From: Hydrogenothermaceae bacterium
GTDB taxonomy: Bacteria; Aquificota; Aquificia; Aquificales; Hydrogenothermaceae
DNA: 64,000 nt
Reading direction: 5' to 3'
Assembly: GCA_026418535.1 (NCBI GenBank)
Contig: JAOABC010000003.1
Coordinates: 124,001-188,000, forward strand
Shown: piece by piece, positions 42,301 through 60,324 of the stretch
Numbering within the stretch: the stretch's first letter is position 1
Layout of the letters: each line of letters begins with the position of its first letter
The notes under the pieces: model-generated
What the model was told of the DNA's origin: nothing
Database searches by the model: none
The model's input: only the letters and a program-made list of their open reading frames with translations
Made by a program: the position numbers and the translations under genes

Positions 42301-42418
42301 AAAAGAGAAGAACTTCGTTAAGCAACTTATAGTCATAACCCATGACGAGGAGATAGAGGAAAGGGCAGATACAATATACAAGGTAGACTCTGGAGAGGTT
42401 GAACTGATTACTGTTTAA
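39377..42418 (+). CDS. rad50: Rad50/SbcC double-strand-break repair ATPase
   Basis: 1013 residues. Walker A GENGSGKSSIVEAV, Q-loop-side KLEQLIKWGKKE, long coiled coils interrupted by a zinc hook CPVCGKPL near residue 512, and C-terminal ALSGGQRISLALALRFA with Walker B FLILDEPTIHMD. Rad50 tethers DNA ends together with the nuclease Mre11/SbcD, which is not next to it. Its stop interlocks with that of the convergent phoR. Confidence 0.95.
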   Translation: MILKKVTLINFLSHADSEVEFNPTGITAIIGENGSGKSSIVEAVQFALFGKSDKGKLEQLIKWGKKESRVDLEFENLQGTFRIVRELSKIGKGDVQSRSILYKFEGSRLVPYLQKNLDKELPRLTGLTRKSFQTSGLIKQGEIEGLLSQKPKEREKIIEELLGIQYYQRLIQEYNENRKGIKDRLQILQDRQINTEDLLREIEEKRVLMSQLDRQIEEVGKEIKNKREIVSELTENLKTLQIITSQINSKLQLISRVDREISDLSQEMEKIQNLKEKLPEVSEEYRRYGELENRLNTVQELEAALNRKDIYIKLLEQLREDREFIQSYRETARKFEELQRKERDISRKIENINQLINSIEKNELERKSLEKALSEIKREVEFLNSYKNKAQEYQQKQARLNQISSELKILNQRRGQLGQMKASTQSIEDQMKKRKVELLKIAELLKTNYHQKFQTLQLNPNMIDEFINQNEIKLNYLEEEKSKLQQEIATLKSKQLEHKERLEKLSSIDVSCPVCGKPLTEHEKEELFQEIKDDMVLKEEEYKEKSQKLKEREEEIKKQREIRKFLENFKSTYSIYSEKKLEKDQLSSKMKVIEHSISKLESIEKEKHQIEEELSREHGNYGRYQSLKEKGLEMEVERLEKEIESVDLFLKENRKEDLLKRKEELLYELERIREFLSKNTAIYGKYRYLDEERIDKQITTTSRELKSLERRISQFSLEVGIEGSSVDMDTVSNLKNHLKSEANRIKNVQEEFFNIKREIAKEEAIKEELKKKNLELKKLKSELEGLRNSLTEIDEKDILLKKEGLERNIEILSQKYEEMVLERGKIEERLRILKDKLDDVRKEMEEIEALKDKLSKYDRVIETISRVNRAIKDNALYTLPKITEEIFSRFNFSHFYGLKFNEDYSIVLSVNVVGGETNAQIDALSGGQRISLALALRFAISKMLNNRIDFLILDEPTIHMDKHRKRELVDLVGDIKEKNFVKQLIVITHDEEIEERADTIYKVDSGEVELITV

Positions 42419-43419: not shown

Positions 43420-44068
43420 CAACCTCCTGATGTCTTAACATCTTTCCTTCTTTCATGTATATTACTTCTTCTGCTAAATTTGTAGCTATATCTGCTACTC
43501 TTTCAACATTCTTAACCACATCTATGAGTCTGAGGGCTACTTTTATAGTTGAAGGGTCTTCTACCATGTATGTGTACAACTCTCTTATTATCTGATCTTC
43601 TAATGCGTCTATCTTGCCATCCCTCTTTATAACATCCCTTGCAAGGTCTGCATCCATCTCTGCAAAAGCCTTTATAGAATCTTTCAGCATGTTTATGGTA
43701 AGCTCTGACATTAGGGGTAGGTCAACGTACTCTTTAATCTTTGGTTTCTGGAGTATAGACTCAGCGTGTTCCTTTATGTTCTCTGCATGGTCTCCTATCC
43801 TTTCAAGATCTCTGTTCACAAAGAGATCCATAGCTAGCATTCTTAGATACTTTGCCTCTGGTTGGTATCTTGCTATCGTGGTTATTATCAGGCTTTCGTT
43901 TTCCACTTCCATCGTATCCATCTTCTCTTCATTAGTCTTTATGTATTTCAAATGTTCTAGATTGTGTTCTACTATAGCTTTTATGGCACTGTCTATCATA
44001 CTCTGAGCTAAATCTGCCATAGTAAGTAGCCTTTCCCTTATCTCTTTTAGTTTTGGCTCTATCAGCAT
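43403..44068 (-). CDS. phoU: Phosphate signalling/transport regulator PhoU
   Basis: 221 residues made of two three-helix bundles with the repeated metal-binding pattern (ERIGDHAENIKEHAES; KNVERVADIATNLAEEV). PhoU links the Pst transporter to PhoR and restrains phosphate uptake. It lies 32 bases after pstB and overlaps phoR by 17 bases. Confidence 0.94.
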   Translation of the reverse strand: MLIEPKLKEIRERLLTMADLAQSMIDSAIKAIVEHNLEHLKYIKTNEEKMDTMEVENESLIITTIARYQPEAKYLRMLAMDLFVNRDLERIGDHAENIKEHAESILQKPKIKEYVDLPLMSELTINMLKDSIKAFAEMDADLARDVIKRDGKIDALEDQIIRELYTYMVEDPSTIKVALRLIDVVKNVERVADIATNLAEEVIYMKEGKMLRHQEVDEDKG

Positions 44069-44100
44069 CTAATATCCTCCTCTATAAACGTTTTTATATT

Positions 44101-44862
44101 TTATCCAAATCTTCCGGAGATGTAGTCCTCAGTGAGTTTTTTATTTGGTTTAGTGAATACAGTATCTGTTAAGTCAAATTCAATCAGCTCTCCTAGATAC
44201 ATAAATGCTGTGTAGTCTGATATCCTTGCAGCCTGTTGCATATTGTGGGTAACTATCACTATAGTGTGGTTCTTCTTCAGTTCTACCAGTAGTTCCTCTA
44301 TCTTCGCCGTTGAGATAGGGTCTAGTGCAGATGTTGGCTCATCAAAGAGGACTACATCAGGTCTAACTGCTATAGTTCTTGCTATACAGAGCCTTTGCTG
44401 TTGTCCTCCAGATAGGGAAAAGGCTGATACGTTCAACCTATCCTTGACCTCTTCCCACAGAGCTACGTTCTTCAGAGTCTCTTCAACCCTATCCTGTAAC
44501 TCTCCTTTTTTCTTTATCCCTTGAAGTCTCAGACCATAAGCTATATTGTCAAAGATCGACATAGGGAAAGGTGTAGGCTTTTGAAAGACCATGCCTATTT
44601 TTGCTCTAAGTTCCATAAGGTCTACATTTTTGTCAAGTATATTCTTCCCGTCCAAGAGTATCTCTCCTTCGTATCTGTTTCCAGGATAAAGGTCATGCAT
44701 TCGGTTAAAACACCTTAGAAGGGTGGTTTTTCCACATCCAGAGGGTCCTATCAGAGCGGTGACTTTTTTATTGTATATTGGCATATTTATATTTTTTAGG
44801 GCAAGCTTCTCTCCTGTATAGTAGAACTTTAGATTCTTTACTTTCATCCTTATATCTGACAT
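44101..44862 (-). CDS. pstB: Phosphate ABC transporter ATPase PstB
   Basis: 253 residues. Walker [18 protein letters not shown], the PstB-specific [16 protein letters not shown], signature [14 protein letters not shown] and Walker [15 protein letters not shown]. Powers high-affinity phosphate uptake. Follows pstA after 14 bases. Confidence 0.97.
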
Positions 44863-44876
44863 TTAAAAAAGCCTCC

Positions 44877-45722
44877 TTATTGGTGTTTTTTTCTTTGTAT
44901 TATGTACCTAGCTGTTATGGATGCCATCAAAACAAAAAAAGTTAACAAGAAAGAAGCAGCCCATGCCTGTTTATGCCATTCATCATAAGGGCCCATAGCA
45001 TACTGAAACACAGTTACCGTTAGCGAAGCCATCGGTTTTGTAGGATCTAGATTTGTAAAGTTGTTATTGAATGAGGTAAAGAGTAAAGGTGCTGTCTCTC
45101 CGGATATCCTTGCAACACCGAGGATTACTCCAGTTAGAACCCCAACCTTAGCAGCCTTTAAAACTATCTGAAAACTTACCTGCCATGGTTGTGCACCAAG
45201 AGCGTAAGCAGCTTCCCTAGTCTGCTGAGGGACTAATTTCAACATCTCATCTGTAGTTATGACAATAACCGGTATCATTAGTATAGCAAGAGCAATACCA
45301 CCAGCCAAACCCATAAAGTGTCCTACAGGAAGGACTAGTAGAGCATAAACAACCGCTCCTATAACTATAGACGGATTGCTGACCATTATATCCACTATAT
45401 TTCTTGCTACTCTTGCAATTCTAGAGCTCCTTCCATACTCTGCAAAGTATATCCCTGCAAGTATTCCAATAGGAGTTCCAATAACCGTACCTAAAAAAGT
45501 TATTATGATGTGACCAAGGAAGGCATGCTTTAAACCACCTCCTTCTATTCCCGGTGGGACAGGGTCATAGATGAATAGGTTTATATTTATGTACTTAAAC
45601 CCATTTATAAATAAGTCTCCCAAGATCCAAAATAAGAAAAATAGCCCGAAAGTTGCTGATAAGAAGGATAGAGTTAGTGATATGTAGTTCTCTATTTTCC
45701 TCTTCGCTTTGATGTTAATCAT
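44877..45722 (-). CDS. pstA: Phosphate ABC transporter permease PstA
   Basis: 281 residues with six helices. The inner-membrane permease loop EAAYALGAQPWQVSFQIVLKAA and GVARISGETAPLLFT are typical of PstA. Forms the channel with PstC. Starts 3 bases after the pstC stop. Confidence 0.95.
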   Translation of the reverse strand: MINIKAKRKIENYISLTLSFLSATFGLFFLFWILGDLFINGFKYININLFIYDPVPPGIEGGGLKHAFLGHIIITFLGTVIGTPIGILAGIYFAEYGRSSRIARVARNIVDIMVSNPSIVIGAVVYALLVLPVGHFMGLAGGIALAILMIPVIVITTDEMLKLVPQQTREAAYALGAQPWQVSFQIVLKAAKVGVLTGVILGVARISGETAPLLFTSFNNNFTNLDPTKPMASLTVTVFQYAMGPYDEWHKQAWAASFLLTFFVLMASITARYIIQRKKHQ

Positions 45723-45725
45723 TTT

Positions 45726-46682
45726 CTACACCTTCCACTTTTTCTCAAGTTGGAGTAACATTATCTTTGATGCGTACAGAACAAAAAAGGATATAACAAA
45801 CAGAATAAGAGTTAAGAAGTAGAGAGAAGAGAGATACAGAGCTGTGTCTGCCTCGGCGAACTGGTTAGCTAAGGTAACGGTTATAGTGGTAAATGGGTCC
45901 AGTAGGGACTTTGGTATCTGGTTTACATTTCCTGCTAAGAAGGTCACGGCCATCGTCTCCCCAATTGCCCTACCAACACTCAAAATAAGACCTCCAGCTA
46001 TACTTGATACAGTTATTGGAATCATAACCTGTTTTATAACTTCCCACTTTGTAGCCCCTAAAGCGTAAGCAGACTCTTTCATTATAGGTGGAACCATGTT
46101 AAAGGCGTCCTTTACAACAGAACTCATAAAGGGAATTATCATTATAGAGAGGACTAAAGATGTGGTTAAAACATCTATCCCTGTTGGTGATCCTTCTAAA
46201 AGTTTTCCTATAACAGGAAATTCTCCCATTTTCTCCTTAAGCCACGGTTCTACCTTTTCTCCAAACAGAGGAGCTACAACAAAAAGACCCCACATCCCAT
46301 AGATTATACTCGGTATTGCTGCTAACAGCTCTATAGCTGTGGAGAGTATAGGTTTTAGTCTATTTGGAGACAGTTCTACAAGGAAAATAGCTATTCCTAA
46401 GGATATAGGAGCAGCCACCAATGTAGATAAGAAGGTAGCTATTAGGGTTCCAATCAGTGGGGCTAGGCCTCCAAACTTCCCTGCAACTGGATCCCAATCT
46501 GTAGATGTAATAAAGTTCCAAACTCCAAAGTGGTTTATAGCTAAAGAAGACTCCCTGTATAGGGAGAGGAATATAATTATAGGGAGAAGTATGCCAACGA
46601 ACATACCTATGGATGTAAGTACTATCCTCAAGACACTTTCTATGGACTTTGACTGCTTTAAGGCATTCTCTCTCTTATCCAT
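45726..46682 (-). CDS. pstC: Phosphate ABC transporter permease PstC
   Basis: 318 residues with six helices, the permease motif ESAYALGATKWEVIKQVMIP and GRAIGETMAVTFLAGN typical of PstC. CGGAGAT precedes the ATG. It is separated from pstS by 96 bases containing a weak terminator, suggesting lower expression than the binding protein. Confidence 0.95.
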   Translation of the reverse strand: MDKRENALKQSKSIESVLRIVLTSIGMFVGILLPIIIFLSLYRESSLAINHFGVWNFITSTDWDPVAGKFGGLAPLIGTLIATFLSTLVAAPISLGIAIFLVELSPNRLKPILSTAIELLAAIPSIIYGMWGLFVVAPLFGEKVEPWLKEKMGEFPVIGKLLEGSPTGIDVLTTSLVLSIMIIPFMSSVVKDAFNMVPPIMKESAYALGATKWEVIKQVMIPITVSSIAGGLILSVGRAIGETMAVTFLAGNVNQIPKSLLDPFTTITVTLANQFAEADTALYLSSLYFLTLILFVISFFVLYASKIMLLQLEKKWKV

Positions 46683-46716
46683 TTTATCTCCGTACGTAAT
46701 TTATATGATATATTTT

Positions 46717-46740
46717 AACAAAAACCCCTAAAAATAGAGG
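46717..46740 (-). terminator. Weak intrinsic terminator/attenuator between pstS and pstC
   Basis: On the minus strand CCTCTA-TTTT-TAGGGG (six pairs, one G-U) is followed by TTTTTGTT. Its position after pstS and before pstC would let most transcripts stop after pstS, giving binding protein in excess. Confidence 0.6.
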
Positions 46741-46778
46741 AACAAAAGTTTAGAAGGTTAACCATGAAGAAAGTCTGC

Positions 46779-47774
46779 CTACATCAGGCCGTTTTCTTTC
46801 CAGTACTCTCTGATCATATTTTTGACGTTTTCAGGCATAGGGATATAGTTTAACCTTATAGCTTCTTGATCACCGTTTTTGTACACCCAATCAAAGAAGG
46901 CCACAACTTTCTTTGAGGCTTCTGGTTTATCCTTTGCCAGAAGTATGAACGTAGCTCCGGCTATAGGATATGTATTTTTTCCTGGTTGATCTGTTAGGAT
47001 ATAGTAAAAGTGTTGTTTTTTATCCCATTTTGCATTTGTTGCAGCTGCTTGGAACGACTCGGTTGAAGGAGCTACAAAGTTTCCTTCTCTGTTCTTAACC
47101 TTTCCAGCAGGAAGGTTGTTCTGTTTTGCGTATATGTACTCAACGTATCCTATTGAACCTCTAAACCTTTTAACGTAGTTTGCTACACCTTCATTTCCTT
47201 TTCCACCAACTCCAGTTGGCCAGTTGACAGAAGTTCCAAACCCAACTTGCTTTTCCCACTCAGGACATACTTTTGACAAGTAGTTCGTCCATGTCCAAGT
47301 TGTTCCAGAACCATCAGACCTTCTTACTACTGTGATATCTCTATCAGGTAAAGAAACTCCAGGGTTTAGCTGTTGGAGGTATGCGTCGTTCCACTTCTTT
47401 ATCTTACCAAGGTATATATCACACAGAGCTTTTCCGTCAAAGTTCAGTTGAGTGTTTCCGATGTCAGGAAGATTATACGTTGGAACTACTCCACCTATAA
47501 TGGTAGGAAACTGAACTAACTTCTTCTCCTTTAGCTCCTCCGGAGTTAGGGGTGCATCTGATGCTCCAAAATCAACTGTCCTGTTCTCTATCTGCCTTAT
47601 ACCACCACCAGAACCTATAGCTTGATAGTTTACCTTTACTCCAGATACCTTCTCGTACATGTATGCCCATGATGAGTATAGGGGATAGGGAAAAGATGCT
47701 CCCGCACCTGTGATCTCTAGAGCAAAAGCTAAACTCGACACACTTATTAATCCGACTATAGCTAACTTCTTCAT
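46779..47774 (-). CDS. pstS: Phosphate-binding periplasmic protein PstS
   Basis: 331 residues with a cleavable signal peptide (MKKLAIVGLISVSSLAFA). Phosphate-binding elements: GAGASFPYPLYSSW, GSGGGIRQI, DFGASDAPL and RRSDGSGTTWTWTNYL. GGAGGT precedes the ATG. First gene of the pst-phoU-phoR operon. Confidence 0.96.
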   Translation of the reverse strand: MKKLAIVGLISVSSLAFALEITGAGASFPYPLYSSWAYMYEKVSGVKVNYQAIGSGGGIRQIENRTVDFGASDAPLTPEELKEKKLVQFPTIIGGVVPTYNLPDIGNTQLNFDGKALCDIYLGKIKKWNDAYLQQLNPGVSLPDRDITVVRRSDGSGTTWTWTNYLSKVCPEWEKQVGFGTSVNWPTGVGGKGNEGVANYVKRFRGSIGYVEYIYAKQNNLPAGKVKNREGNFVAPSTESFQAAATNAKWDKKQHFYYILTDQPGKNTYPIAGATFILLAKDKPEASKKVVAFFDWVYKNGDQEAIRLNYIPMPENVKNMIREYWKENGLM

Positions 47775-47839: not shown

Positions 47840-47893
47840 TTTTTAAAAACTACCCCTTCCCATTTTCTGGTAGGCTATGATTACCAATTTAGC

Positions 47894-48311
47894 TCAAAGG
47901 GTAAGCATGTACTTAGCAAACCCGCTTTTCTTATTATCTATACTTCTTTGGGCACCACTATACTCTACTATTTCAACGTTTCCTATCCAGTTAACATGTT
48001 TAGACATAAAGTACTTTATACCTGCTATGTAGTGGTCTCTCTTTACATTTTTTCCAGTTTGATGGTAGATTATCTAATTTGAACTTCTTGTCGAACTTTT
48101 CTTTCGTTTCCATTATTACTTTGTCCATTTCTGCTTGATATTCTGCCTTTTCTGATTCTTCTTTTGCAAGCTGTTCATCTATTTCGGCTTCCTCCTGCTG
48201 AGTTAAAACGCCCTTCTCAACTAACTTCTTCAAGATAGGATTTTCAACCACTTGTGCATAAGAAGTACCCACGATTCCATAAAGATTCAGGGTAAAAAGG
48301 TATTTTTTCAT
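47894..48311 (-). pseudogene. Remnant of an outer-membrane porin (frameshift and internal deletion)
   Basis: The reading frame from ATG 48311 encodes a signal peptide (MKKYLFTLNLYGIVGTSYA) and a short coiled region (NPILKKLVEKGVLTQQEEAEID) typical of the N-terminus of OprP/OprO-like porins, then runs into a stop near 48000. In another frame, the sequence from about 48030 down to a TGA at 47894-47896 reads RDHYIAGIKYFMSKHVNWIG ... FAKYMLTL, which looks like the last beta strands of a porin. Together only ~130 codons remain of a protein that is normally 350-450 residues, so the middle has been deleted and the frame broken. It sits directly upstream of pstS, where a phosphate porin would make sense. 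Confidence 0.7.
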
Positions 48312-48339
48312 CTGCAAACCTTCTTTTTCAGTTATATAG

Positions 48340-48453: not shown

Positions 48454-51400
48454 CTAAAACTTATAAGATATTCCAAAACTAAAGCTCCTTCCGACTTTAT
48501 ATCTTAGTGACACTTTATCTCCTTGTAGAACTAAAACCTCATCATCTAATATGTTTTTAGCTTTAAAGTCTATTGTGAAGTTCTTTTTTAGTTTCTTTTT
48601 AAATACGAAATCCAACTGGTCGAATGACTGTTCGTAGTGATCTGGCTGACCATATAACCCAATCGACCTTATTCTTTTACCAAATGTATTGTACAGCATT
48701 CCCCAGTAAAGACCTGTGTCTGGATTGTCATATCCAAATGTGAGATTTAAAACATAAGGAGATTGACCCTGCATCCTTCTACTTTTAGAAGTAAGTATTT
48801 TTGCACTTTCTTCGTCTAAAGTTACTTTTGACTCTATAAATGCAACGTTTCCAGATATGAAAAAGTTATCATAATCTATGTTTCCCAAGTACGGAATTTT
48901 TTCTACCGCTTCTATTTTATTTATAAAGTTAAATGATTTTCTAAATTCAAACTCTGCTCCGTAGTTATTTGCCTTTAAAGCATTTTGATAAGATAAAAAA
49001 GGATTGTTTGTGGTTGGGAGATAAGTTTCTTCTATAGGATTTTTAATGTTTCTGTAGAATAATGATATAGAGACCGAGTCTAATCCAGCCAACATCTTTT
49101 CTATTCTAAGATCAAAGTTGTCTATTTTAGAAGGTTTTAGATTTGGATTACCAAGAATTCTTTCACCTGTTAGAGGATCTATGAAAACTGAGTTTGAAAC
49201 CTCAAGAAAATCTGGATATGTCATAGTCTTACTGTATGCTCCTTTTAAATTTAGAGTGTCACTAAAAAAGTACTTTACAGATAAGTCAGGGTAGCTATCC
49301 TTTAGTTTTATGTCTGACTTTAGTTCTGTAGGAGAAAGCTGCTCGTAAGATAAAACATTTTGCTTTAGGTCTTCAAATCTATTACCTACAGAAACTCTCA
49401 CTTTTTGGCCTAACTTTGTATCAAAATTAGCGTAGAAAGCGTTAACATCAAGCTTACCAGAGTATTTATCATTAAAGAAAGTTCTATTCTGTATTCTAAA
49501 GTACTTTTCTCTATTCTCCGGAGAGAAGATAGCATCTATATTCTCATACTTCAAAGTTTCCTCTGGAAGGTTTACACCAGACTTCGGTAAATAAGTAAAC
49601 CTTCTAATCCTTGAAGACCTTTCTTTTTCTTGCTGTTGGATTCCAAACTTTATTTCTGTATCTTTAAATAATAATAAACTATCTTTTTTGTAGATTATGT
49701 CTACCCGAAAATCTTTACTCTTATCCTTGAGATAGGTAAACTCATGGGCTAAGTTTGAGTTAGGAACTCTTACTCTATTGTAGTATCTTCCCGTTCCTTC
49801 TTCTAACCAGTAAGTATAACTTACTTCATTTGGTATTTCCATATCCGCGGTAGAGAAAGCTGTAGCCCACTCTAACTTAAAATTAGGTAAAGGTAAAGAG
49901 TGACTTCCGAAAAGTTGATTAAACATAAGAGATCTTTCCTGCCAACGTAAGTTTGTTATTCTTTGAACGTTTTGATTTTCATCAGTTCCGTTATAAACTT
50001 GTGCTCTGTTGGTGGATATTCTCGTTAGTAAAGAGGTAAACTTAACTATCTGACTATCTCTGAAAGATAGCCCAGTTCCAACTAAATATGCTAACTTTAT
50101 ATCGTTTACATTATTATTATATATTCCCCCATTGTTTGCTGTTAGACCAGATTGACTAAGGTTATATATATTTCTTTCTACATCTACTTTTTTCCACTCG
50201 TTGTCGTACATAAATGAAAGTAGATATCCAACTTTAATACTACCATCTCCAAACTTCTTGGAGTCACCCAATGCTAAGTTGAAGCCAACTCCAGGAGGAA
50301 ATGTTATATCCTTTAAATTATTCTTCGACCTAAAAGTAGTAACATATTTTTCTAATTCCTCTCCTGAATAAGCATCTTTGTCTGGAAAAGGTAGTTTTCT
50401 TGTTCCATCATCGAATCCAAGAAAGTCAGTTTTACCACCCTCATAAAATTTTCCATCTTTGAAAGTAGTTAAGGAGTTGTATTTCACAGATGCTGACACA
50501 TCTAAGAAAAACTCCTTAGGATAGTCTTTTGTGTTTAAGATTACCGTACCTGTAGCAAAAGATGCAGGAATATCGGGAGAATAGCTTTTCTTTATCACTA
50601 TATTATTTAATACACCTGTAGGAAATATATCTAAAGGTACTATCCTCTTTATAGGGTCAGGAGAAGGTAGTATAGAGTTGTTTAATAGGGTTATTGAGTA
50701 TCTCCCCCCCAGTCCCCTAATATAAACATGACCATTATCCATAATTGTTATACCAGAAACTCTCTTTACTGCTGAAGATGCATCAGAATCTCCAGCTTTT
50801 GAAAACTGTTCAGAGCTTAAAATATTCACAACCTCTGCAAATTTTGCCTGTTCCGCCATAGCTTCCGCTATAGTTCCCTGTATGTACGGAGCAGTTACAA
50901 CGTACTCTGATAGCTCAAAAGTTAATGGAGTCAGTCTCACAGTTTGGTTTAATATTTGCCCTTCTGAGACTTCTATATCATCTATCGTCCTTGCACTATA
51001 TTCAGGATGAATAAAAGATAAGGAGATTTTCTCCTCTTCAACATCTAATAAAATCTCCCCACTTTTGTCAGTAAGATATTCTTTAGAATTGCCTTTTATG
51101 TATACTTTTACTCCACTTATAGGTTTTTGGTCTACATAAGATATCACTTTTAATCTAATATTGGCCTTTATTCTTTTCTTCTCTTCTCCTTCTTTAATAG
51201 AAGGAGTTTTTTGAAGTTGGGTATCAGACCCTGTAGCTAGTTCTTGATTTATTGTAATACCTTCTTTAGTTAAATCTATGTAGTATATCTTCATCTCTCC
51301 ATCTTCTATTTTTAGATGATAAGAAAAATTACCTATTTTTATTGTATAGATACCCTTCTTCAGCTTTAAGTCTATCTCTCCATACTCATTTGTTCTAAAC

Positions 51401-51540
51401 TCTTTATCTTCAATTAGAACCTTTTCATTTTTAAGTGGTATGGAATCTTTGAATATATATACCTTTGAACTTCCAAATTCTGAAGCAAACACATCTGTCA
51501 ATATAGCTGACAGTAAAACTGTTCTGGTTAAGTATCTCAT
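48454..51540 (-). CDS. Large TonB-dependent outer-membrane receptor/transporter
   Basis: 1028 residues. Signal peptide (about 1-20), two small beta-sandwich (carboxypeptidase-regulatory-like) domains at about 25-90 and 118-200, a TonB-box-like EYVVTAPY, a plug with [18 protein letters not shown] and [20 protein letters not shown], and a C-terminal 22-strand-type barrel ending in FGISYKF. The plug motif is that of a proteobacterial subfamily found beside DUF3450/TtpC gene sets. Last gene of a seven-gene operon that supplies its own energising complex. Ligand unknown; the pst and phoX neighbours suggest phosphate or organophosphate, or export of the adjacent lipoproteins. Confidence 0.9.
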
Positions 51541-51544
51541 TAAT

Positions 51545-52717
51545 TTACGTTTCCTCCTGATAACAGTATTCTCTATTAACTTTGCATCTACTTATAATTT
51601 GAAGGAGCTGAACAGATTTTTTATATACATTGTCATCTTTAATTTGTTTCAAGTAATCTTCTGATTTTTCTAGTCTTCCAGACATAAAAGCACAGTATGC
51701 AATAGCATATTTAATATTATCGTCTTTATCTAATTGATTTACTTTTATAATATCTTCTAAACCAAGAACTTGACTATATCTCTTCATATCTATAAGGATT
51801 CCGATTCTCTGTCTTAATTTTTCTGGGCCGTCTTGAATCATACTGTTTAGAGTCAAGGCATTATCATATCTACCAATCCTTTTGTAAACCTCTGCTGCAT
51901 CTTTATAGTAATTAGGGTTTACCTTTGAAGCTTTTTCAAAGAAGTAAGCTGCATTGTATAACATACCAATTTTGTAATAGCTGTTTGCCAGAGAGACTAA
52001 TATTTTCTCGTCATCTCCAAATATAAAGTAAGCCTTCTCTAATAAAAATATAGATTTTTTATACTCTCCATTTTGATATAAGGCTTTAGATATAGCAACG
52101 TAATCCTCCGGAGTTGCGCCTTTTTGACTTAGTAAAATTTCTGCCACTTCCATTGCAGAAAAGTATAGTCTTAGTTCCATGTATGTATAAAATTTTAGTT
52201 TGTAGAAAATTGTTTTTTCTTCTGTAAATTTTTTTAAAGCTTCATCTATAGTAGATAGAACTCCGTCATAGTCAGAGAGATTTTTCAAACATTCTACCTT
52301 TATAAGATAGAACTTATAATCTGTAGATGTTACTTCTTTTTCTTTATCTATCCACTCTACAGTTTTTCGACAGTCTTTCTGCTTATAGTAAGAATCTACT
52401 ATGTAAGTGATGATATTTTTATCAGTAGCTCCATAGCTATAAGCTTTTTCAAAATTAGATGCTGAATCTTTGAAGTTTTGCATTTTGTATAGCGCATAAC
52501 CAAATAGAGTATAGTATCTTTTTGTATCTACCTTCTGTGGATTTATCTCTTTTAATATTTCTATAGCTCTATCGTAATGTTCGTCTTTTATTAACAGAGA
52601 TGGTAATTGAAGCTGATCTACGGTCTTTTCCTGTTTTTGTTCCTTTTTTGTTTTTGCTAGTACATAACCAAAAGTTAAAAAGATAGAAACTAAAAGTATG
52701 TATGAAATTTTTTTCAT
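51545..52717 (-). CDS. TPR-repeat periplasmic protein of the TonB operon
   Basis: 390 residues: signal peptide (KKISYILLVSIFLTFGYVLA) followed by about eight tetratricopeptide-like helical pairs (for example YYTLFGYALYKMQNFKDSASNFEKAYSYG). The ATG at 52717 has GAGGAG upstream; an upstream in-frame start at 52747 would lie in tonB. TPR proteins are regular partners of TtpC-type TonB systems and may act as a periplasmic scaffold. Four bases before the receptor gene. Confidence 0.82.
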   Translation of the reverse strand: MKKISYILLVSIFLTFGYVLAKTKKEQKQEKTVDQLQLPSLLIKDEHYDRAIEILKEINPQKVDTKRYYTLFGYALYKMQNFKDSASNFEKAYSYGATDKNIITYIVDSYYKQKDCRKTVEWIDKEKEVTSTDYKFYLIKVECLKNLSDYDGVLSTIDEALKKFTEEKTIFYKLKFYTYMELRLYFSAMEVAEILLSQKGATPEDYVAISKALYQNGEYKKSIFLLEKAYFIFGDDEKILVSLANSYYKIGMLYNAAYFFEKASKVNPNYYKDAAEVYKRIGRYDNALTLNSMIQDGPEKLRQRIGILIDMKRYSQVLGLEDIIKVNQLDKDDNIKYAIAYCAFMSGRLEKSEDYLKQIKDDNVYKKSVQLLQIISRCKVNREYCYQEET

Positions 52718-52733
52718 CTGTGCTCCTCTTGGT

Positions 52734-53384
52734 TTATTGCAGTTCAAACTTCACTACCTGCTTTACCCATGTTTTTACAGGTTTACCTTTGTATCTACCA
52801 GGCTCAAATTTCCACTGTTTTACTGCATTTATAGAGGCTTCTTCAAACACTCTTGCTGGTTGAGATTCCAAAACTTCCACTTGCTGAACAGAACCGTCCT
52901 CATCAACTAAAATTGAAAGGACAACATACCCAGTTATATTTTTAGCTCTTGCGGATTTAGGATATTCCGGAGAAGTTCTAAACCTTGGCATAGGTGGTTG
53001 GTCAACAGATTTCTCAGTCATAACAATATTCTCTTTAACATCCCCTACTATGTCCTTTGAGTCCGAAGATACAAATAAACTGTCAAAAGAAAATTGGGGA
53101 AGGTTAATTTCTATTCCTGATAAACCTCCAGACAATCCTGGAGGTGGTACAGCTGTATCCATTCTAGGTTTATGCTCTATCTGCTTTTGCTCTACCTTTT
53201 TTTCCTCTTCAGGAGGTTTTACTTCTTTCTCAGTTATAATAGGAGTAAAGTCTTTATCCATTTTTCTTTGCTTAAGAGATTGGATAGAATTTAAATAGAG
53301 CATAAGAAAAATAGTAAGGGTAAAACCAATTAAACCTATTCCAAATCCGGATAATCTATTCCTTAAGTTGTTTACCCTTGTCAT
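52734..53384 (-). CDS. tonB: TonB energy-transducing protein
   Basis: 216 residues: N-terminal anchor (GIGLIGFTLTIFLMLYL), a short charged/proline linker (EVKPPEEEKKVEQKQ), and a C-terminal TonB domain PEYPKSARAKNITGYVVLSI ... INAVKQWKFEPGRYKGKPV. Transmits proton-motive energy from ExbB/ExbD to the outer-membrane receptor. The linker is short compared with E. coli TonB, as in TonB2-type proteins. Confidence 0.93.
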   Translation of the reverse strand: MTRVNNLRNRLSGFGIGLIGFTLTIFLMLYLNSIQSLKQRKMDKDFTPIITEKEVKPPEEEKKVEQKQIEHKPRMDTAVPPPGLSGGLSGIEINLPQFSFDSLFVSSDSKDIVGDVKENIVMTEKSVDQPPMPRFRTSPEYPKSARAKNITGYVVLSILVDEDGSVQQVEVLESQPARVFEEASINAVKQWKFEPGRYKGKPVKTWVKQVVKFELQ

Positions 53385-53389
53385 AATCT

Positions 53390-53797
53390 CTAACCTAATT
53401 CCTGTTTAGTAGAGACTGCAACATCTTTAGCACCAGCAAGCCTAATCTGATCTACCACGTCAACTAAAACTTCTACCCTTGCATCTTTGTCTACTATAAC
53501 CAAAACAGTTTTGTTTGTAGAAGAAGAAAGTAAATCCCTTACTTTACTCTGCAAGGTCCAAAGCTTTACCAACTGGTCATCTATATATATATTTCCAGCT
53601 TTGTCTATGTACACTCTTATTTCTTTTGCAGTTATTCTTTGAGCTGTAGATGCTTGAGGTCTCTCTATCTCTATCTTAGCTTCTTTTATAAAGGTGGCAC
53701 TCACTATAAAGAATATAAGTAGTATAAAAACTACATCTATAAGTGGTGTAATATTTGGTTCATCACTTCTTTGCATTGCAGACTTAAACCTTCTCAT
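53390..53797 (-). CDS. exbD: ExbD/TolR biopolymer transport protein
   Basis: 135 residues with one helix carrying the essential Asp in NITPLIDVVFILLIFFIVSATF and a periplasmic domain. Works with ExbB as the proton-driven motor for TonB. Overlaps exbB by 14 bases. Confidence 0.94.
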   Translation of the reverse strand: MRRFKSAMQRSDEPNITPLIDVVFILLIFFIVSATFIKEAKIEIERPQASTAQRITAKEIRVYIDKAGNIYIDDQLVKLWTLQSKVRDLLSSSTNKTVLVIVDKDARVEVLVDVVDQIRLAGAKDVAVSTKQELG

Positions 53798-54422
53798 ATT
53801 CTAACTCCTTGTAGAATTTTGATAAAGCTAGCATTCTTATTTCTTTAAGTTCTTCTTGTAATCTTCTTTGTTTAGATAAAAGTAAACTTTCTGTTATAAT
53901 TCCAGGAATAGCTATAATCAAACCTATCTCCGTAGTATAAAGAGCCTTTGATATTCCTAAAGCAATCCCTCCTCCACCTTGAGAAAAAAAGGTTCCTTCA
54001 TTGAGAGAATTAAACATAGTTACCATTCCATCTACAGTTCCAAGAAGACCAAGAAGAGGAGCAATCACAGTTAATCCAAGGAGAGCGCTTTTGTATGATT
54101 GAAGGTTTGCATCATATTCTAAAATTACTTCGTCTACAAGATTTTCCAAATTTTTTTTACTTTTTATCTTGTGAGCGTTTTCTTTTAATTTCTCTAAAAC
54201 ATCTTTGCAAGCGGAATCTATCACACCTTTAAATTTATCTATCTTACCGTCATAAACTAAAGAAAATACTTCTGACACTGGTAGGGTTGTTCCTCTTCTG
54301 AGAGCTGCAAATCTATATCCTATAAAATACCACAAGAGAAAAGTTACCACCATAAGGGGGTATATATATATACCCCCATTTTCTAATATTGTTGAAAGGT
54401 TGTCCTGTATAAACTGTTTCAT
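53784..54422 (-). CDS. exbB: ExbB/TolQ/MotA-family proton channel protein
   Basis: 212 residues, three helices, with the conserved APLLGLLGTVDGMVTMF and the third-helix region TTEIGLIIAIPGII. Together with ExbD forms the energising motor. It is the second, shorter ExbB-like protein of this operon, after the TtpC-like one. Confidence 0.93.
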   Translation of the reverse strand: MKQFIQDNLSTILENGGIYIYPLMVVTFLLWYFIGYRFAALRRGTTLPVSEVFSLVYDGKIDKFKGVIDSACKDVLEKLKENAHKIKSKKNLENLVDEVILEYDANLQSYKSALLGLTVIAPLLGLLGTVDGMVTMFNSLNEGTFFSQGGGGIALGISKALYTTEIGLIIAIPGIITESLLLSKQRRLQEELKEIRMLALSKFYKELEYEKV

Positions 54423-54439
54423 ATATATTTCACCTTACC

Positions 54440-55762
54440 TTAAACATTACAGTGGTTTAAAATCTTTAGAGCAGATTCTTCTATAAACTCCTTTATCCTC
54501 TCAGACCACCCTGTTATAAGAGAGCCAAGTATATAGGTTGGTATTGCTACAACAAGTCCGAGCTCAGTTGTTACTAATGCTTCTGATATCCCACCGGCCA
54601 TAAGTTTTGGATCTCCCGTTCCAAACTCAGTAATTACATTAAAGGTTTCTATTATACCGGTAACAGTCCCAAGTAAACCAAGAAGTGGAGAAACAGCTGC
54701 TATAACTATTATAGTTGTTTTGAATCTATCTAAAGAAGAGGTGTATCTTAGCATAGCTTCTGTAATAACGTAATCTATTGTTTCTTTGTCCTTTGAATTT
54801 AGATTTCTTAACACATAAGCAAGTACAGAAGGAACAACACCTTTTAAACCTTCTGCATATTCTAAAGCTTCTTTTATTTTTCCAGATTTTAGCATATTTG
54901 CTATATTCTCCGTAACTTCAGAACTTTTTCTGCTTGCTGCAAAGATTATAAAAATTCTTGATACTATCAGTATCAAAGCTATAAATCCTAAAAGTATGAT
55001 TATATATCCTATAATTCCACCGCTTTCTATATGGTCAAAAAAAGTTCTTTCTGCAGGAGGGTTTACAGGGTTAGACTCATTGTCGTATAGAAAAATCCCT
55101 ATAGTTGGTGGTAAATTACCTTCCTTCAGACCTTTTACTGTATCGTAGACAACTGAGCTATTCTTTGGATTCCATAAACCAAAAAGTCCATCTCCTATAG
55201 GAAGGAGAACTCCAATATTACCATCCGGAGTTATTCCGTATCTGGCAACCCCACCAATTTTTATAACTTCTCCAGAAACTTTTTTCCCATCTTGTAAGAA
55301 AAACTCTCCTTTCTCTATTCTTAGAGAAGAGTTTTTATCTAAAAGGTCAAAGGCATTTAAAAAAGCATTCTTCATAGTTTTTATAGGGTCCACGTCTTCA
55401 ATGTTTTTGTAGCCATTCATACTTAGCGTGTCAACAGCCTGTTGAACAGTTACAGGAAGTAGATTTTTACTCTCTTCCGCCTTTGATAGCTGAATTTCTA
55501 TTTCTCTTATTTTATTTTCTAAATCGTCCCCTTGAGCTTTTAATAGCATTATCTTATTTTCTGCTTCCACTACTTCTTTATTACCTTGCTCTGAAATACT
55601 TTTCAACTGTTGTTCTAAAGCTTCCAATTCCTGCATTAAAGCTTTCTTTTGATTGATAAGATAAATATACTCTTTCTTGTACGCCTTCATGAGCTTATCT
55701 TCTTCTCCAAAGGACAGAGAAAAAGAACCCAAAATTAGCATAATCGCTATAAACTTTCTCAT
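54440..55762 (-). CDS. TtpC-like ExbB paralogue with long periplasmic N-terminal extension
   Basis: 440 residues: signal peptide (AIMLILGSFSLSFG), a ~60-residue coiled coil (QKKALMQELEALEQQLKSISEQ), a globular periplasmic domain, then an ExbB-like membrane part (GIIGYIIILLGFIALILIVSRIF; SPLLGLLGTVTGIIETF; TTELGLVVAIPTYI). This layout is that of TtpC in Vibrio TonB2 systems, where it is needed in addition to ExbB. The ATG overlaps the DUF3450 stop (ATGA). Confidence 0.88.
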   Translation of the reverse strand: MRKFIAIMLILGSFSLSFGEEDKLMKAYKKEYIYLINQKKALMQELEALEQQLKSISEQGNKEVVEAENKIMLLKAQGDDLENKIREIEIQLSKAEESKNLLPVTVQQAVDTLSMNGYKNIEDVDPIKTMKNAFLNAFDLLDKNSSLRIEKGEFFLQDGKKVSGEVIKIGGVARYGITPDGNIGVLLPIGDGLFGLWNPKNSSVVYDTVKGLKEGNLPPTIGIFLYDNESNPVNPPAERTFFDHIESGGIIGYIIILLGFIALILIVSRIFIIFAASRKSSEVTENIANMLKSGKIKEALEYAEGLKGVVPSVLAYVLRNLNSKDKETIDYVITEAMLRYTSSLDRFKTTIIVIAAVSPLLGLLGTVTGIIETFNVITEFGTGDPKLMAGGISEALVTTELGLVVAIPTYILGSLITGWSERIKEFIEESALKILNHCNV

Positions 55763-56535
55763 TTTCTAACCTCTCCTGGTAAAAAGTTCGGTACTACAAA
55801 ATAACCTGTTCTTATCTGTTTTTTAAAAGAATCGAACATATTGTCTATCATTTTTTGGTCCTTTCCTGAAGAGAGCAGATGAATTTTGTACTCTGGAGCT
55901 TTTAAAAATCCGTATTTTCTATCTCCTGTCCTAAAAAGCAACCCTACCATACCCACTCTTAAAACATCTGCCAAGTAAGGTTTATTGTCTATATAGACAG
56001 TATCTTTATATATCCCGCTTTCTTTTGTTGCTCTTATTTCGTCTTCATAGATAGCCCATAGTTGATTTAAAGCTTTTTCCGGTAGTATATTTCCTTCTTG
56101 AACTTCTTTCCGGAGTTGACTAAGTTGAGACAGTCTATCTTGTTTTTTAAAGGGTAAAGATGAGTTTACATACTTTTCCAAAATTCCTATTCCTTCTAAA
56201 ACCACAGGTATTAAGTCTGTATTTTTAGAGCTTTTTTCAGCCAACTGTCTTTTTTTCTTATCCAGTTCAGATTTAAACTCCCTAACCCTAAGACTTTCTC
56301 TGTCATAACTTAAGGCAAGCTCAGACTTTCTCATCTGAGCATTTCTGCTTTCTGCTCTTATTCTTGCTTTAATTTCATCTATCTGAGAGTTTAGTTGTTC
56401 TATCTCAGATCTCAGAGAGACTATCTCTTTAACTAAATTCTCCTCCGAACTTTGAGCAAAAGATAAATCAAAAAAAGTAAGCATAGCTAAAGCTAAAATA
56501 TTAGGTCTTATAATCTTCAGACCTTTTACTATCAT
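55759..56535 (-). CDS. DUF3450 periplasmic coiled-coil protein
   Basis: 258 residues: signal peptide, an N-terminal coiled coil (about residues 30-100) and a C-terminal domain with GMVGLLFRTGDRKYGFL. DUF3450 proteins occur as the first gene of TtpC/ExbB/ExbD/TonB sets and are thought to be part of the energising assembly. The ATG at 56535 has GGAGGAT 6-7 bases upstream; a GTG at 56541 is too close to the ribosome-binding site. First gene of the operon. Confidence 0.85.
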   Translation of the reverse strand: MIVKGLKIIRPNILALAMLTFFDLSFAQSSEENLVKEIVSLRSEIEQLNSQIDEIKARIRAESRNAQMRKSELALSYDRESLRVREFKSELDKKKRQLAEKSSKNTDLIPVVLEGIGILEKYVNSSLPFKKQDRLSQLSQLRKEVQEGNILPEKALNQLWAIYEDEIRATKESGIYKDTVYIDNKPYLADVLRVGMVGLLFRTGDRKYGFLKAPEYKIHLLSSGKDQKMIDNMFDSFKKQIRTGYFVVPNFLPGEVRK

Positions 56536-56565
56536 AAACACATCCTCCGGTTTATTTAAGTCTAT

Positions 56566-56588
56566 ATTATAAAGTAAAAGTTGTTAAA
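56566..56588 (-). promoter_or_regulatory. Promoter of the TonB-system operon with a TTTAACA element
   Basis: On the minus strand -10 TATAAT (complement of 56566-56571) is preceded after 10 bases by TTTAACA (complement of 56582-56588), the same heptamer in the same position as at pstS, with a weaker TTTGCTT 11 bases farther upstream. No sigma70 -35. Suggests shared activation, perhaps by PhoB. Confidence 0.5.
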
Positions 56589-56631
56589 TTGAAAGCAAAA
56601 TTTAATTAAAAAAATTTAATAAAAAAAATAT

Positions 56632-56670
56632 AAAAATGGAAACACCCCCAGAAAGGGGGCCTCCATTTTT
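56632..56670 (-). terminator. Strong terminator after the beta-helix lipoprotein gene
   Basis: Arms AAAAATGGA/TCCATTTTT (56632-56640, 56662-56670) enclose a CCCCC/GGGGG inner stem with an AGAAA loop; T/A-runs on both sides make it effective on either strand. It separates the lipoprotein gene from the TonB-system operon. Confidence 0.9.
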
Positions 56671-56690
56671 ATTTTAAAGTCATCACTTTA

Positions 56691-58115
56691 TTATTGTATT
56701 ACTCTATTATTAGTGTATCCATTAAACATATTCTGTATATCTGTGTTAGTGAAAGTTAATACTTCTCCGGTATCTCCAGCAGCTCTAAACGTAGTAGAGC
56801 AGTTTGGTTGTTGTTGAGGGTTGTTAATTATAACACTCATAAATACGGGAGAGTTTACGTTCCTGCTAGATAGTCTTTGATAAGTGGCATTGTTGTTAAT
56901 CCTTATACAAGCTTGAGATCTTGGCCCAGTTATGAAAACGTTTATAAGCTGTGCGTCTGTTCCTCTTCTGAGCATTATAGCTTCATGGGCTGAGCTATTA
57001 GTTGATTCTATTGTTATATTGGCCACTCTTAAAAAGCTGTATGGAGTTGCGTTGTAATTAGTTCTCAGGCCATCCGCTTCTATACCCCGTGGGTCATTAG
57101 ATGAAACCTTTGTTTGTCTTATATATACGTACTGAACATTTCCTCTATACCCTTGGTCTGTATCTATGTTGTCATCTTCATTACCTATGAGCACTAAGTA
57201 TTTTGCATTAGCTGTTCCACCAAACCACTCTACACCGTCATCCGCGTTGTTGTACACTTGAACATACTCTATTTTTGTTCCACTACCAGTAGCAAGCAAG
57301 GTTAAACCATTAACCTCTTCATCTGGAGCAACTTCAGCACCACCAAAAGCTAAAACTACATATTTAAGAGAGCCACTTGAATCATTATCCGAGTTTCCAC
57401 CGTACACTAATGATTTATCAGCTTCAAACTGATTTTCTGTAGAACCTGTATTAGTAGAAGCGAAACCTGCTATATTTATACCTCCCCACTGTCCAGAAGA
57501 AGTGTCACAACTTTCAAGGTATCTCTTTCCTACAAAAAGGATAGGTTTCTCTTTTGTGCCTTCGGCTATGATTTTACCACCTCTCTCTACATTAAGAGAG
57601 TCGAAAGAACCTATTCCTGTTTTATCCCCATAGATTAACACACCCGGTTGTATATTCAGTACGCCGCCACTTTTTACTCTAACAACACCTTTAAGTCTGT
57701 AGCATTTTCCAGATTCTAACGTTACTGATCCGGTTATATCTCCCTGTATTACTGTAGCAGTGGTACAAGATGGCATAGAAGGGTTTTTCCCTAAACCGAA
57801 AGTCCATCCATCCGTCCAGTCGTTTGAGGGATTAACCGCACCTATAAACTCTGCGTTGTCAAAAAAAGAATCCACAAGCCTTGGGTTAGAAGCATACTGT
57901 GCCAGACTAACAACCTGAGATAAATTTAGTGGTTGGCCCTGAGGTTGGCATTGTTTTATTGTAATAGATTCCGTTCCTACAAAAACAGACGGCTGATTTG
58001 TTCCTGTAGACGGGGAAGAAGAACCCCCCCCACCTCCTCCACCACATCCAACAAGTAATGTGGACATAGAGATGAAACTTACTGTTAAAACAGCAGATAA
58101 GACTGCTTTTTTCAT
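56691..58115 (-). CDS. Surface beta-helix lipoprotein of unknown function
   Basis: 474 residues. Lipobox LLVGC (Cys24) followed by seven glycines, which would be a flexible tether. Then beta-helix-like sequence: VRVKSGGVLNIQPGVLIYGDKTG, GGKIIAEGTKEKPILF, GQWGGINIAGFA, GGNSDNDSSGSLKYVVLAFGG, GSGTKIEYVQVYNNADDGVEWFGGTANAKYLV. I know this family from marine proteobacteria and Bacteroidota, where it lies beside TonB-dependent receptors; no activity is known to me. Here it lies between phoX and the TonB operon, with its own leader and terminator. Likely exposed at or secreted from the outer membrane; inference. Confidence 0.8.
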   Translation of the reverse strand: MKKAVLSAVLTVSFISMSTLLVGCGGGGGGGSSSPSTGTNQPSVFVGTESITIKQCQPQGQPLNLSQVVSLAQYASNPRLVDSFFDNAEFIGAVNPSNDWTDGWTFGLGKNPSMPSCTTATVIQGDITGSVTLESGKCYRLKGVVRVKSGGVLNIQPGVLIYGDKTGIGSFDSLNVERGGKIIAEGTKEKPILFVGKRYLESCDTSSGQWGGINIAGFASTNTGSTENQFEADKSLVYGGNSDNDSSGSLKYVVLAFGGAEVAPDEEVNGLTLLATGSGTKIEYVQVYNNADDGVEWFGGTANAKYLVLIGNEDDNIDTDQGYRGNVQYVYIRQTKVSSNDPRGIEADGLRTNYNATPYSFLRVANITIESTNSSAHEAIMLRRGTDAQLINVFITGPRSQACIRINNNATYQRLSSRNVNSPVFMSVIINNPQQQPNCSTTFRAAGDTGEVLTFTNTDIQNMFNGYTNNRVIQ

Positions 58116-58210
58116 TACTAGTAACCTCCTTTGTTTTTTACAAAAAAATCTTAAATCTTAGAGTTTAAATACGTTTTAAAAAATTATTAATTTTTTCTAA
58201 CAAAACTATA

Positions 58211-58238
58211 AAAGAAAGGGGGTATTATTATCTACCCC
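58211..58238 (-). terminator. Terminator after phoX
   Basis: Minus strand GGGGTA (complement of 58233-58238), an 8-base loop, TACCCC (complement of 58219-58224), then CTTTCTTTT. Moderate stem, good pyrimidine tail. The rest of the 139-base gap to the lipoprotein gene is A/T-rich, with a good AAAGGAGG ribosome-binding site at its end. Confidence 0.65.
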
Positions 58239-58254
58239 TCCCTCAGTAACTGAT

Positions 58255-60324
58255 TTATCTGTATATCTCTTTGCCGTCTTTTCTCCAAACAGCTATAACT
58301 GAAGGTCTTGGAACTTCGACATTATCTCCATAAGGCCATCTTGAGCTTGGAGCGTTGGGGTCTTGAGCTCCGGATTCTACTTCTCCTGGATGTTGTATGG
58401 CACAGAAAAACGTTTTGTAGTCATCTGAGAATTCTGGACCACATATCTCACAACCTACTACTCCAGACAAGAACATCTTTAAAGTTTTGTTTATTGGGTC
58501 AAGAACATATACACCATCGTTTTTCCCCAATCTGTTTACGCTATCGTTTCCATCTGTAGCTATCCATACATTTCCTTCTTTGTCTATAACAAAGTTGTCT
58601 GGAGCGCTTATAGCAGGTACTCCAGAATTTGGGCTAACTTCTCTGCCGTAGAGATACAACTTCTTGTTGTAGTCTGGATTTTCTGGATCACCACAAAGGA
58701 TAGGAATTTGATATGTGAATTTAGTAGCAGTAGGATCTCCTTTCTCTTCTATTATCTCTAATACGTGCCCCATATAGTTTATAGCTCTTGGATTAGCCCT
58801 ATTTATGGTATTACTTGCAGTTGGGGTTGTGGTATCCGCTATTTTTCTGTATCTATTTACTGTTCCTGAGGTAGACCTTCTATCGTTGGAGGTAAGCGCA
58901 ACCCATACACTCTTTGTAACAGGGTTCCACTCTATGTCTTCAGGTCTATCCATCATAGTAGCACCCAGAGAATCTGCCGCACCTCTTGTGTTTATAAAAC
59001 ATAGAGCTGGATCGTTTTTAAATTCATCAGGTAATTTATCATTTACTGTTACATTATAACTATTAGCATTTTTTTCTACTCTTGCAATTAGTATCCACTC
59101 TCCTATCATTCCTTTATCTGTATAGTCAAATTTAGCTACGTACAACTCCCCTTCATCCAGTAAGTTCATGTTAGCCTTTCTATCTGTCTGATTATATTTA
59201 CCTTTTGTTATGAACTTATAAATATATTCAAATCTCTCGTCATCCCCCATATAAATCACAACTCTTCCATCTGGAGCAATTGCGTAAGTTGCAGCTTCAT
59301 GTTTGAACCTTCCAAGAGTAGTTCTTTTAATAGGTGTACTATTTGGATCCATTGGATCTATTTCTACCACCCATCCAAACCTGAATGGTTCATTAGGCTC
59401 TGTATTTATATTAAATCTACCATAGTGTTGGTGAAATCCGTAGTAATTCGCAGAAGAACCAGGAACTCCATACCTCTCGTGAATATTTCTTATCAAGTTT
59501 GTATCTGTTGTATTGTTTGGTATACTTATATTGTTTCTGTTTCCCCCAAAATAAGAGTGAAAATTCTCTTCACAGGTCAAAATAGTTCCCCATGGTGTTT
59601 CACCTGCGGCACAGTTGTTTAGTGTTCCGTATACAAATTCACCATTTGGGTCTTGAGACGTTTTCATAAGCCTATGACCTTTTGCAGGTCCTGATATGTC
59701 ACACTTTGTAATTCCTGTGATTCTTCTGTTGTAGGAAGAACCTTTTACATAGCTCCAAGAACCATTGCTGTTTCTTTTCACCTCCACCACAGAAATTCCA
59801 TGTGCCATGAGCATAAAATCTACTTCATCTTTTGTAGGTCTGCCTTGTGCAGGCGATGTAACACCATTTTGGACTGTTAAGTAAGATGGGAACATTATTT
59901 CAGGGTTAGTATACTCATGGTTTACTACCAATAAATCCTTACCATCTGGAGATTTTAGATAACCTACAAAGTCACAATTGTATCCAAAAGATTTAGCTTG
60001 CCTTAAAACATCCTCTGCCGTAGGACCAATTCTTCTTATTTTACCCCAATCTAAGTTAGAACCATTATCAAGAGCATCACCCCATCTTATAATTATATTG
60101 TGTTCAAATTCTTGTGGAACTGTTATCTTATCATCTTTGTTAGGATAAATTGTTTGGAAAGAAAGTTTGGAAGGCTGGTTAGTTGAAGGCTGATTAGCAG
60201 CTGGTTTGTCTTCATCTCCTCCACACGAAACTAAAGATGTAGCGGCCACTGTGAATGCTGCAGCTTTAAGAAGCTCTCTTCTACTTAAAGCTCTTGTTAA
60301 GATGTTACCAAAGTACTCACCCAT
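58255..60324 (-). CDS. phoX: PhoX-family (DUF839) alkaline phosphatase, Tat-exported lipoprotein
   Basis: 689 residues. N-terminal twin-arginine motif SRRELLK (Arg15-Arg16), hydrophobic stretch and lipobox LVSC (Cys34), so it is exported folded and lipidated. The body is a DUF839 beta-propeller: LTCEENFHSYFGG, HEAATYAIAPDGRVVIYMGDDERFEYIYKF, DRPEDIEWNPVTKSVWVALTSND, PDNFVIDKEGNVWIATDGND, matching the Ca/Fe-binding regions of PhoX phosphatases that release phosphate from organic esters. AAAGGAGG precedes the ATG. Next to pst and TonB genes. Confidence 0.9.
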   Translation of the reverse strand: MGEYFGNILTRALSRRELLKAAAFTVAATSLVSCGGDEDKPAANQPSTNQPSKLSFQTIYPNKDDKITVPQEFEHNIIIRWGDALDNGSNLDWGKIRRIGPTAEDVLRQAKSFGYNCDFVGYLKSPDGKDLLVVNHEYTNPEIMFPSYLTVQNGVTSPAQGRPTKDEVDFMLMAHGISVVEVKRNSNGSWSYVKGSSYNRRITGITKCDISGPAKGHRLMKTSQDPNGEFVYGTLNNCAAGETPWGTILTCEENFHSYFGGNRNNISIPNNTTDTNLIRNIHERYGVPGSSANYYGFHQHYGRFNINTEPNEPFRFGWVVEIDPMDPNSTPIKRTTLGRFKHEAATYAIAPDGRVVIYMGDDERFEYIYKFITKGKYNQTDRKANMNLLDEGELYVAKFDYTDKGMIGEWILIARVEKNANSYNVTVNDKLPDEFKNDPALCFINTRGAADSLGATMMDRPEDIEWNPVTKSVWVALTSNDRRSTSGTVNRYRKIADTTTPTASNTINRANPRAINYMGHVLEIIEEKGDPTATKFTYQIPILCGDPENPDYNKKLYLYGREVSPNSGVPAISAPDNFVIDKEGNVWIATDGNDSVNRLGKNDGVYVLDPINKTLKMFLSGVVGCEICGPEFSDDYKTFFCAIQHPGEVESGAQDPNAPSSRWPYGDNVEVPRPSVIAVWRKDGKEIYR

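Follow-up and report, generated by a model that had tools for sequence, protein, structure and literature searches.

A candidate TonB-dependent phosphate import module with an ElpS-family lipoprotein beside the pst operon of a Hydrogenothermaceae bacterium

A stretch of 64,000 nucleotides from a Hydrogenothermaceae bacterium with a small genome (contig JAOABC010000003.1, positions 124,001 to 188,000; hereafter the window) carries nine consecutive genes beside the phosphate uptake operon pst. They encode a PhoX phosphatase, a β-helix lipoprotein assigned by homology to the ElpS family, a six-gene TonB motor and one large TonB-dependent receptor (TBDR). ElpS, motor and receptor probably form a TonB-powered port that imports phosphate or a phosphate ester across the outer membrane, with ElpS as the surface capture protein, and this is the best-supported reading when set against an export of lipoproteins through the receptor. 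The gene identities, the recurrence of the unit in other genomes, its absence from relatives, the decay of a neighbouring porin and an analogous cluster in a relative were all computed here. A first-pass annotation had described a TonB machine with PhoX and a β-helix surface lipoprotein beside pst, and all nine of its genes are present within 48454-60324 on the minus strand, with their families confirmed by Pfam matches or structure models:

48454..51540, minus strand: TBDR, 1028 amino acids (CarboxypepD_reg, Plug and TIGR01782 matches, structure model, Foldseek)
51545..52747, minus strand: tetratricopeptide repeat (TPR) protein in the TtpD position (Pfam TPR matches)
52734..53384, minus strand: TonB (Pfam TonB_C, 6e-23)
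53390..53797, minus strand: ExbD (Pfam ExbD, 4.8e-29)
53784..54422, minus strand: ExbB (Pfam MotA_ExbB, 3e-19)
54440..55762, minus strand: TtpC-like ExbB with a long N-terminal periplasmic part (Pfam MotA_ExbB, 3e-26)
55759..56541, minus strand: DUF3450 protein in the TtpB position (Pfam DUF3450, 1.2e-24)
56691..58115, minus strand: predicted ElpS-family β-helix lipoprotein, 474 amino acids (homology, model, lipobox LVGC and poly-glycine tether)
58255..60324, minus strand: PhoX phosphatase with twin-arginine translocation (Tat) motif and lipobox (Pfam PhoX, 3e-149)

Terminator-like hairpins on the minus strand separate phoX from elpS (58238-58219) and elpS from the DUF3450 gene (56660-56644), and the nine genes are therefore probably read as three transcripts. 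Terminator-like sites in the region number 19, with 6 expected.

A genome scan for ElpS, in which the best 80 named loci of at least 588 were examined with 10 kb flanks, many of them shortened, found ElpS paired with a receptor of the same family in 75 of the 80, the remaining five lying mostly on short or cut contigs. In 69 loci, receptor and ElpS share a strand and are no more than 1.5 kb apart; in one, the distance is 1.8 kb. Five loci place the motor between ElpS and the receptor as the window does (L093 from Methylothermaceae, L099, L115, L127 and L153); the order ElpS-DUF3450-TtpC-ExbB-ExbD-TonB-TPR-TBDR is exact in four of these, and L127 has no separate ExbB match. The same motor flanks the pair in L080, L112, L126, L151 and L155, and it stands beside the pair in Alteromonas, Pseudoalteromonas, Aestuariibacter and Tamilnaduibacter. 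A search of plasmid records returned relatives of lipoprotein and receptor side by side in Pseudoalteromonas, Alteromonas, Sphingomonas, Indioceanicola and Bacteroidota. Genes of the type II secretion system (T2SS) follow the pair in 8 of the 80 loci, and in the two alphaproteobacteria of the plasmid set the pair immediately precedes such genes. The co-occurrence table suggested by the first-pass annotation thus bears out the link between ElpS, receptor and motor in distant genomes, which supports its idea of a machine dedicated to one cargo, but leaves PhoX outside, with no occurrence in the 80 loci.

The order DUF3450-TtpC-ExbB-ExbD-TonB-TPR, with DUF3450 first and TPR last, is that of the six-gene Vibrio TonB2-type motor. 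It is shared with TonB2 and TonB3 of Vibrio vulnificus (TtpB, TtpC, TtpD), where TtpB (DUF3450) and TtpD (TPR) of TonB2 are essential for iron transport and where the TonB3 operon includes a receptor, as in the window (PMC6957404). Vibrio TonB2 serves iron uptake and no ElpS is reported there, whereas the window motor accompanies ElpS (PMC6957404). A general TonB system that lies near pst by chance and handles iron, vitamins or glycans would also be compatible with the use of related motors in Vibrio iron uptake (PMC6957404) and with the three further plug-domain receptors of the genome, which could share the motor. The genome holds further ExbB genes as well, and the receptor and motor of the window are therefore not its only set. 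Such a chance neighbourhood is nevertheless very unlikely, as the complete unit turns up again in distant lineages, in several cases next to pst or phoBR-like genes, and regulation by phosphate is published in two phyla.

The lipoprotein has no Pfam match, and a search of PDB sequences with it found no match. By tblastn it is 32-44% identical to the 80 loci, which include Sphingomonas, Xanthomonas and Flavobacterium, and homology to loci with the published elpS gene order (Sphingomonas, Xanthomonas and others) places it in the ElpS / FI-FIII family. Its structure is modelled as a right-handed β-helix with a core predicted local distance difference test score (pLDDT) above 90, and it carries the lipobox LVGC followed by GGGGGGG. 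ElpS of Caulobacter crescentus (CC0170) is made under phosphate starvation and anchored at the cell surface, and its release depends on the T2SS (PMC2996285), and induction of elpS upon phosphate starvation is also reported elsewhere (PMC5172544). By sequence and gene order shared with Sphingomonas, Xanthomonas and other loci, the window pair is assigned to the same lipoprotein and receptor families as ElpS and its neighbour CC0171, and both lipoproteins have a link to phosphate; the Caulobacter pair lies upstream of T2SS genes (PMC2996285), whereas none stand beside the window pair. Two further features set the window apart from Caulobacter: a TonB motor of its own separates ElpS from the receptor, and the receptor bears two N-terminal immunoglobulin (Ig)-like domains. 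A GspD above the NCBIfam cut-off is encoded elsewhere in the window genome (G000:C27:8876-10708).

In Flavobacterium johnsoniae phosphate depletion induces the lipoproteins FI-FIII, reported as distant ElpS relatives; FI and FII sit in clusters with low-phosphate-inducible TonB-dependent transporters (TBDTs), and FI makes up 18.7% of the exoprotein (PMC8115612). The homologous transporter-lipoprotein pair lies next to phoBR (PMC8115612). These clusters begin with the receptor and have no dedicated motor, whereas the module in the window has ElpS first and includes one. The locus of F. hibernum (L134), with the order PhoR-PhoB-TBDR-ElpS, has the layout of the phosphate-responsive clusters of F. 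johnsoniae. One receptor with one partner lipoprotein at the surface is also the principle of SusCD and BtuBG, and the ElpS-receptor pair may work by analogy to SusCD; it is not a member of that class, as the SusD fold is α-helical and ElpS is modelled as a β-helix.

A putative acidic ladder lies on the predicted helix: D245, E267, D292, D293, E296, D314, D315, D318 and E346 are invariant in 40 of 40 diverse sequences, E231 and D348 are kept in 39, and several of these residues are spaced by 22-32 positions, roughly one or more helix turns. With such a pattern, ElpS may bind phosphate by way of cations in a metal-lined site. The same ladder would suit an ElpS that assists or activates phosphatases at the surface, or that is an enzyme acting on a phosphorylated polymer, while the receptor imports phosphate or another nutrient and shares just the regulation. 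Overexpression of Caulobacter ElpS raised alkaline phosphatase activity, whereas none was seen with ElpS itself (PMC2996285), and Foldseek finds a weak likeness of the model to GH28, GH87 and pectate lyases. The template modelling scores of these hits are low, however, mostly 0.2-0.3, no phosphatase family, PhoX included, is enriched beside the pair, and a lipoprotein that is almost always paired with one receptor family is more likely to share a task with it; we therefore regard a separate role of this kind as unlikely.

The receptor matches CarboxypepD_reg, Plug (2e-4) and TIGR01782 weakly, all under the curated cut-offs. In an AlphaFold model (mean pLDDT 88), a plug and a barrel follow two Ig-like domains at the N-terminus, which span about 22-101 and 126-203, and a TonB-box-like motif, ELSEYVVTA, lies at about 209-217. 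Foldseek relates the model to PhuR (2e-29), FecA (2e-26), Cir and other TBDRs; with plug, TonB-box-like motif and barrel, the modelled protein is a TonB-dependent transporter. The two extra N-terminal β domains noted from the sequence alone are thus also seen in the model, and they are common to the receptors of loci with the same module. A quick tree places the receptor on the proteobacterial and myxococcal side (branch support 99), outside Bacteroidota and without a close neighbour, the best identity being 36%.

This architecture brings in the alternative that ElpS, and perhaps PhoX as well, reaches the surface through the receptor with the TonB motor as driving force, by analogy to Myxococcus xanthus, where Oar is reported to be required for secretion of PopC (PMC6434023). 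Oar has an N-terminal CarboxypepD_reg domain, a plug, a TonB box and a linked Ton system, and thus resembles the window receptor, the likeness being one of layout (PMC6434023). There is one receptor for each ElpS, including loci with tandem pairs, and Caulobacter ElpS reaches the surface even in the absence of the T2SS, which leaves room for another route (PMC2996285). In contrast, 28% of the TBDRs surveyed share the Oar layout (PMC6434023). Oar has PopC as its cargo, whereas the window holds neither a PopC-like cargo nor evidence of export. The signal peptides of the ElpS set vary, with a simple lipobox in 54 of 83 sequences, and in a related genome described below a receptor and a motor occupy the equivalent place with no ElpS beside them. 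Bacteroidota have a general route for surface lipoproteins and keep the ElpS-receptor pair despite it. As nothing in the analysis points specifically to lipoprotein export, we consider it distinctly improbable. Both L085 and L102 (Aquimarina) carry two tandem receptor-ElpS pairs, so that each receptor has its own lipoprotein.

For import of phosphate, the gene neighbourhoods provide further indications. In 6 of the 80 ElpS loci, from several phyla, the flanks hold at least two of pstC, pstA and phoU or else a strong match to PstS, with a binomial probability of about 2e-4 at an assumed background rate of 1%. A PhoB-like and PhoR-like pair lies near ElpS in 15 of 80 loci, although these profiles also match other two-component systems, and Alteromonas macleodii has phoB-phoR-pstS followed by ElpS, TBDR and motor. 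Upstream neighbours include OmpR-type regulators (16 of 91), three PHO4 transporters and single polyphosphate kinases, while PstS-type proteins account for 3 of 87 downstream neighbours. The role in phosphate supply proposed in the first-pass annotation is therefore supported by the published induction of ElpS and its transporters (PMC2996285, PMC5172544, PMC8115612), by pst and phoBR-like neighbours in several phyla and by the decay of a porin in the window, which that annotation does not mention. The porin remnant lies with the following genes downstream of the nine-gene stretch:

47875..48317, minus strand: decayed porin of the pst operon, a 5' fragment and a 3' scrap (likeness to the porin of about 435 amino acids in relatives)
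43403..47774, minus strand: pstS-pstC-pstA-pstB-phoU (gene order)
42415..43422, minus strand: PAS/histidine kinase after phoU, in a PhoR-like position (gene position)

In relatives a porin of about 435 amino acids lies directly upstream of pstS (G078 of the same genus, G099 and G102, and likewise G098, where the gene stands at the end of a contig); it has weak Pfam matches to porin families, and other genera have Porin_O_P-type genes at the same place. In the window, the 5' fragment (open reading frame (ORF) 48000-48317) is 59-71% identical to the first 75-106 amino acids of this porin and the 3' scrap, in another frame, corresponds to residues of about 390-434, with roughly 285 codons missing in between. 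In G078 a Gly_transporter-family (UPF0126) gene and an sfsA-like gene precede the porin; their counterparts in the window genome lie about 33 kb away, which implies that a longer segment including the module lies between them. The decay fits a take-over of the outer-membrane step, as a single case.

A second cluster is found in G099 from a related genus (L189 8912-19538), where phoX, TBDR, ExbB, ExbD, TonB, phoD, porin and pstS stand in a row without ElpS. Its receptor has 736 amino acids and is unrelated to that of the window, and its PhoD has a Tat-like start; the cluster is apparently independent of the window module, so that two unrelated TonB systems are found between phoX and pst in one family. 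In G101 (L191, 12200-14223) about 2 kb without an ORF of at least 90 amino acids directly follow phoX, at the place of the G099 receptor; tblastn with that receptor found no similarity in this gap.

Of 136 genomes examined from the phylum, the window genome alone has full-length relatives of receptor and ElpS, and another genome of the same genus has no relative of DUF3450, receptor or ElpS. A DUF3450 match above the cut-off is likewise limited to the window genome; a wide occurrence in the phylum was considered and rejected, since the matches in 66 other genomes are partial, below the cut-off and resemble chance coiled-coil matches. The G+C content is 0.32-0.335 at 48-56 kb, compared with about 0.40 over most of the window, and the following stretches are also at 0.35-0.39. 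Absence from relatives and low G+C suggest that the genome acquired the module next to its native phosphate genes.

Several results weigh against import of phosphate. The neighbours of the ElpS loci are genes of phosphate uptake and regulation, with no enrichment of any phosphatase family. A search for Pho boxes upstream of phoX, elpS, the motor and pstS gave weak AT-rich matches, none of them convincing, and no protein of the window genome exceeds the PhoB cut-off, the best reaching 231 of 296 bits. Another Porin_O_P gene is kept elsewhere in the genome, so the break in the pst porin does not necessarily open a gap. The Caulobacter receptor cc0171 is reported as constitutive, and the work on elpS saw no change in intracellular phosphate (PMC2996285). 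Transport by any ElpS-TBDR pair was not found reported in the literature searched, nor, apart from the papers cited here, was a named TonB-dependent phosphate transporter.

In the mechanism we favour, ElpS on the cell surface would capture a phosphate-bearing ligand and hand it to the receptor, whose plug would be opened by the TtpB/TtpC/ExbBD/TonB/TtpD motor so that the ligand could enter the periplasm. PhoX would free the phosphate where needed, downstream of the receptor, for uptake by PstSCAB. The module probably took over the outer-membrane step from the porin of the pst operon. A more specific and rather doubtful version is that a passive pst porin was exchanged for an acquired transporter driven by the proton-motive force, in which ElpS binds phosphate or polyanions through metals held by the acidic ladder; if true, a defined TonB-dependent system would carry phosphate actively across the outer membrane.

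The families of the components are already known, as is the pairing of ElpS with a receptor, while no description of an operon with its own motor and of the porin decay was found in the literature searched. With at least 588 ElpS-encoding genome loci, ElpS-TBDR pairs are widespread; in Flavobacterium, they account for some of the surface proteins with the strongest phosphate induction reported. An operon with its own motor and a broken matching porin make active import of phosphate or its esters across the outer membrane a testable question, as is whether DUF3450/TtpC motors are specialised for ElpS-type receptor-lipoprotein pairs.

PhoX itself carries SRRELLK, a Tat-type motif, and the lipobox VSC. 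It aligns with structure 3zwu over 53-684 at 4e-102, and conserved blocks (NCA.G.TPWGT.LTCEENF, MGDDER.E.IYKF and MDRPE) mark a full-length PhoX fold. The first-pass annotation had treated it as a partner of receptor and lipoprotein. A single-sequence profile found no PhoX in the flanks of the 80 ElpS loci, and within the family PhoX occurs without the module; its place as a conserved module part was thus rejected, and it is a local partner outside the unit. Homologues with 54-55% identity are found in module-free genomes of genus g9, and 29 of the 136 genomes in the phylum have a PhoX above the cut-off. The window genome encodes, about 20 kb past phoX (C23, L195 2200-4077, about 204-206 kb), a second, divergent PhoX-family protein of 625 amino acids that matches just the C-terminal two thirds of the family. 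Directly upstream of phoX (60431-61069, minus strand) lies a gene for an ankyrin-repeat protein with an N-terminal hydrophobic stretch.

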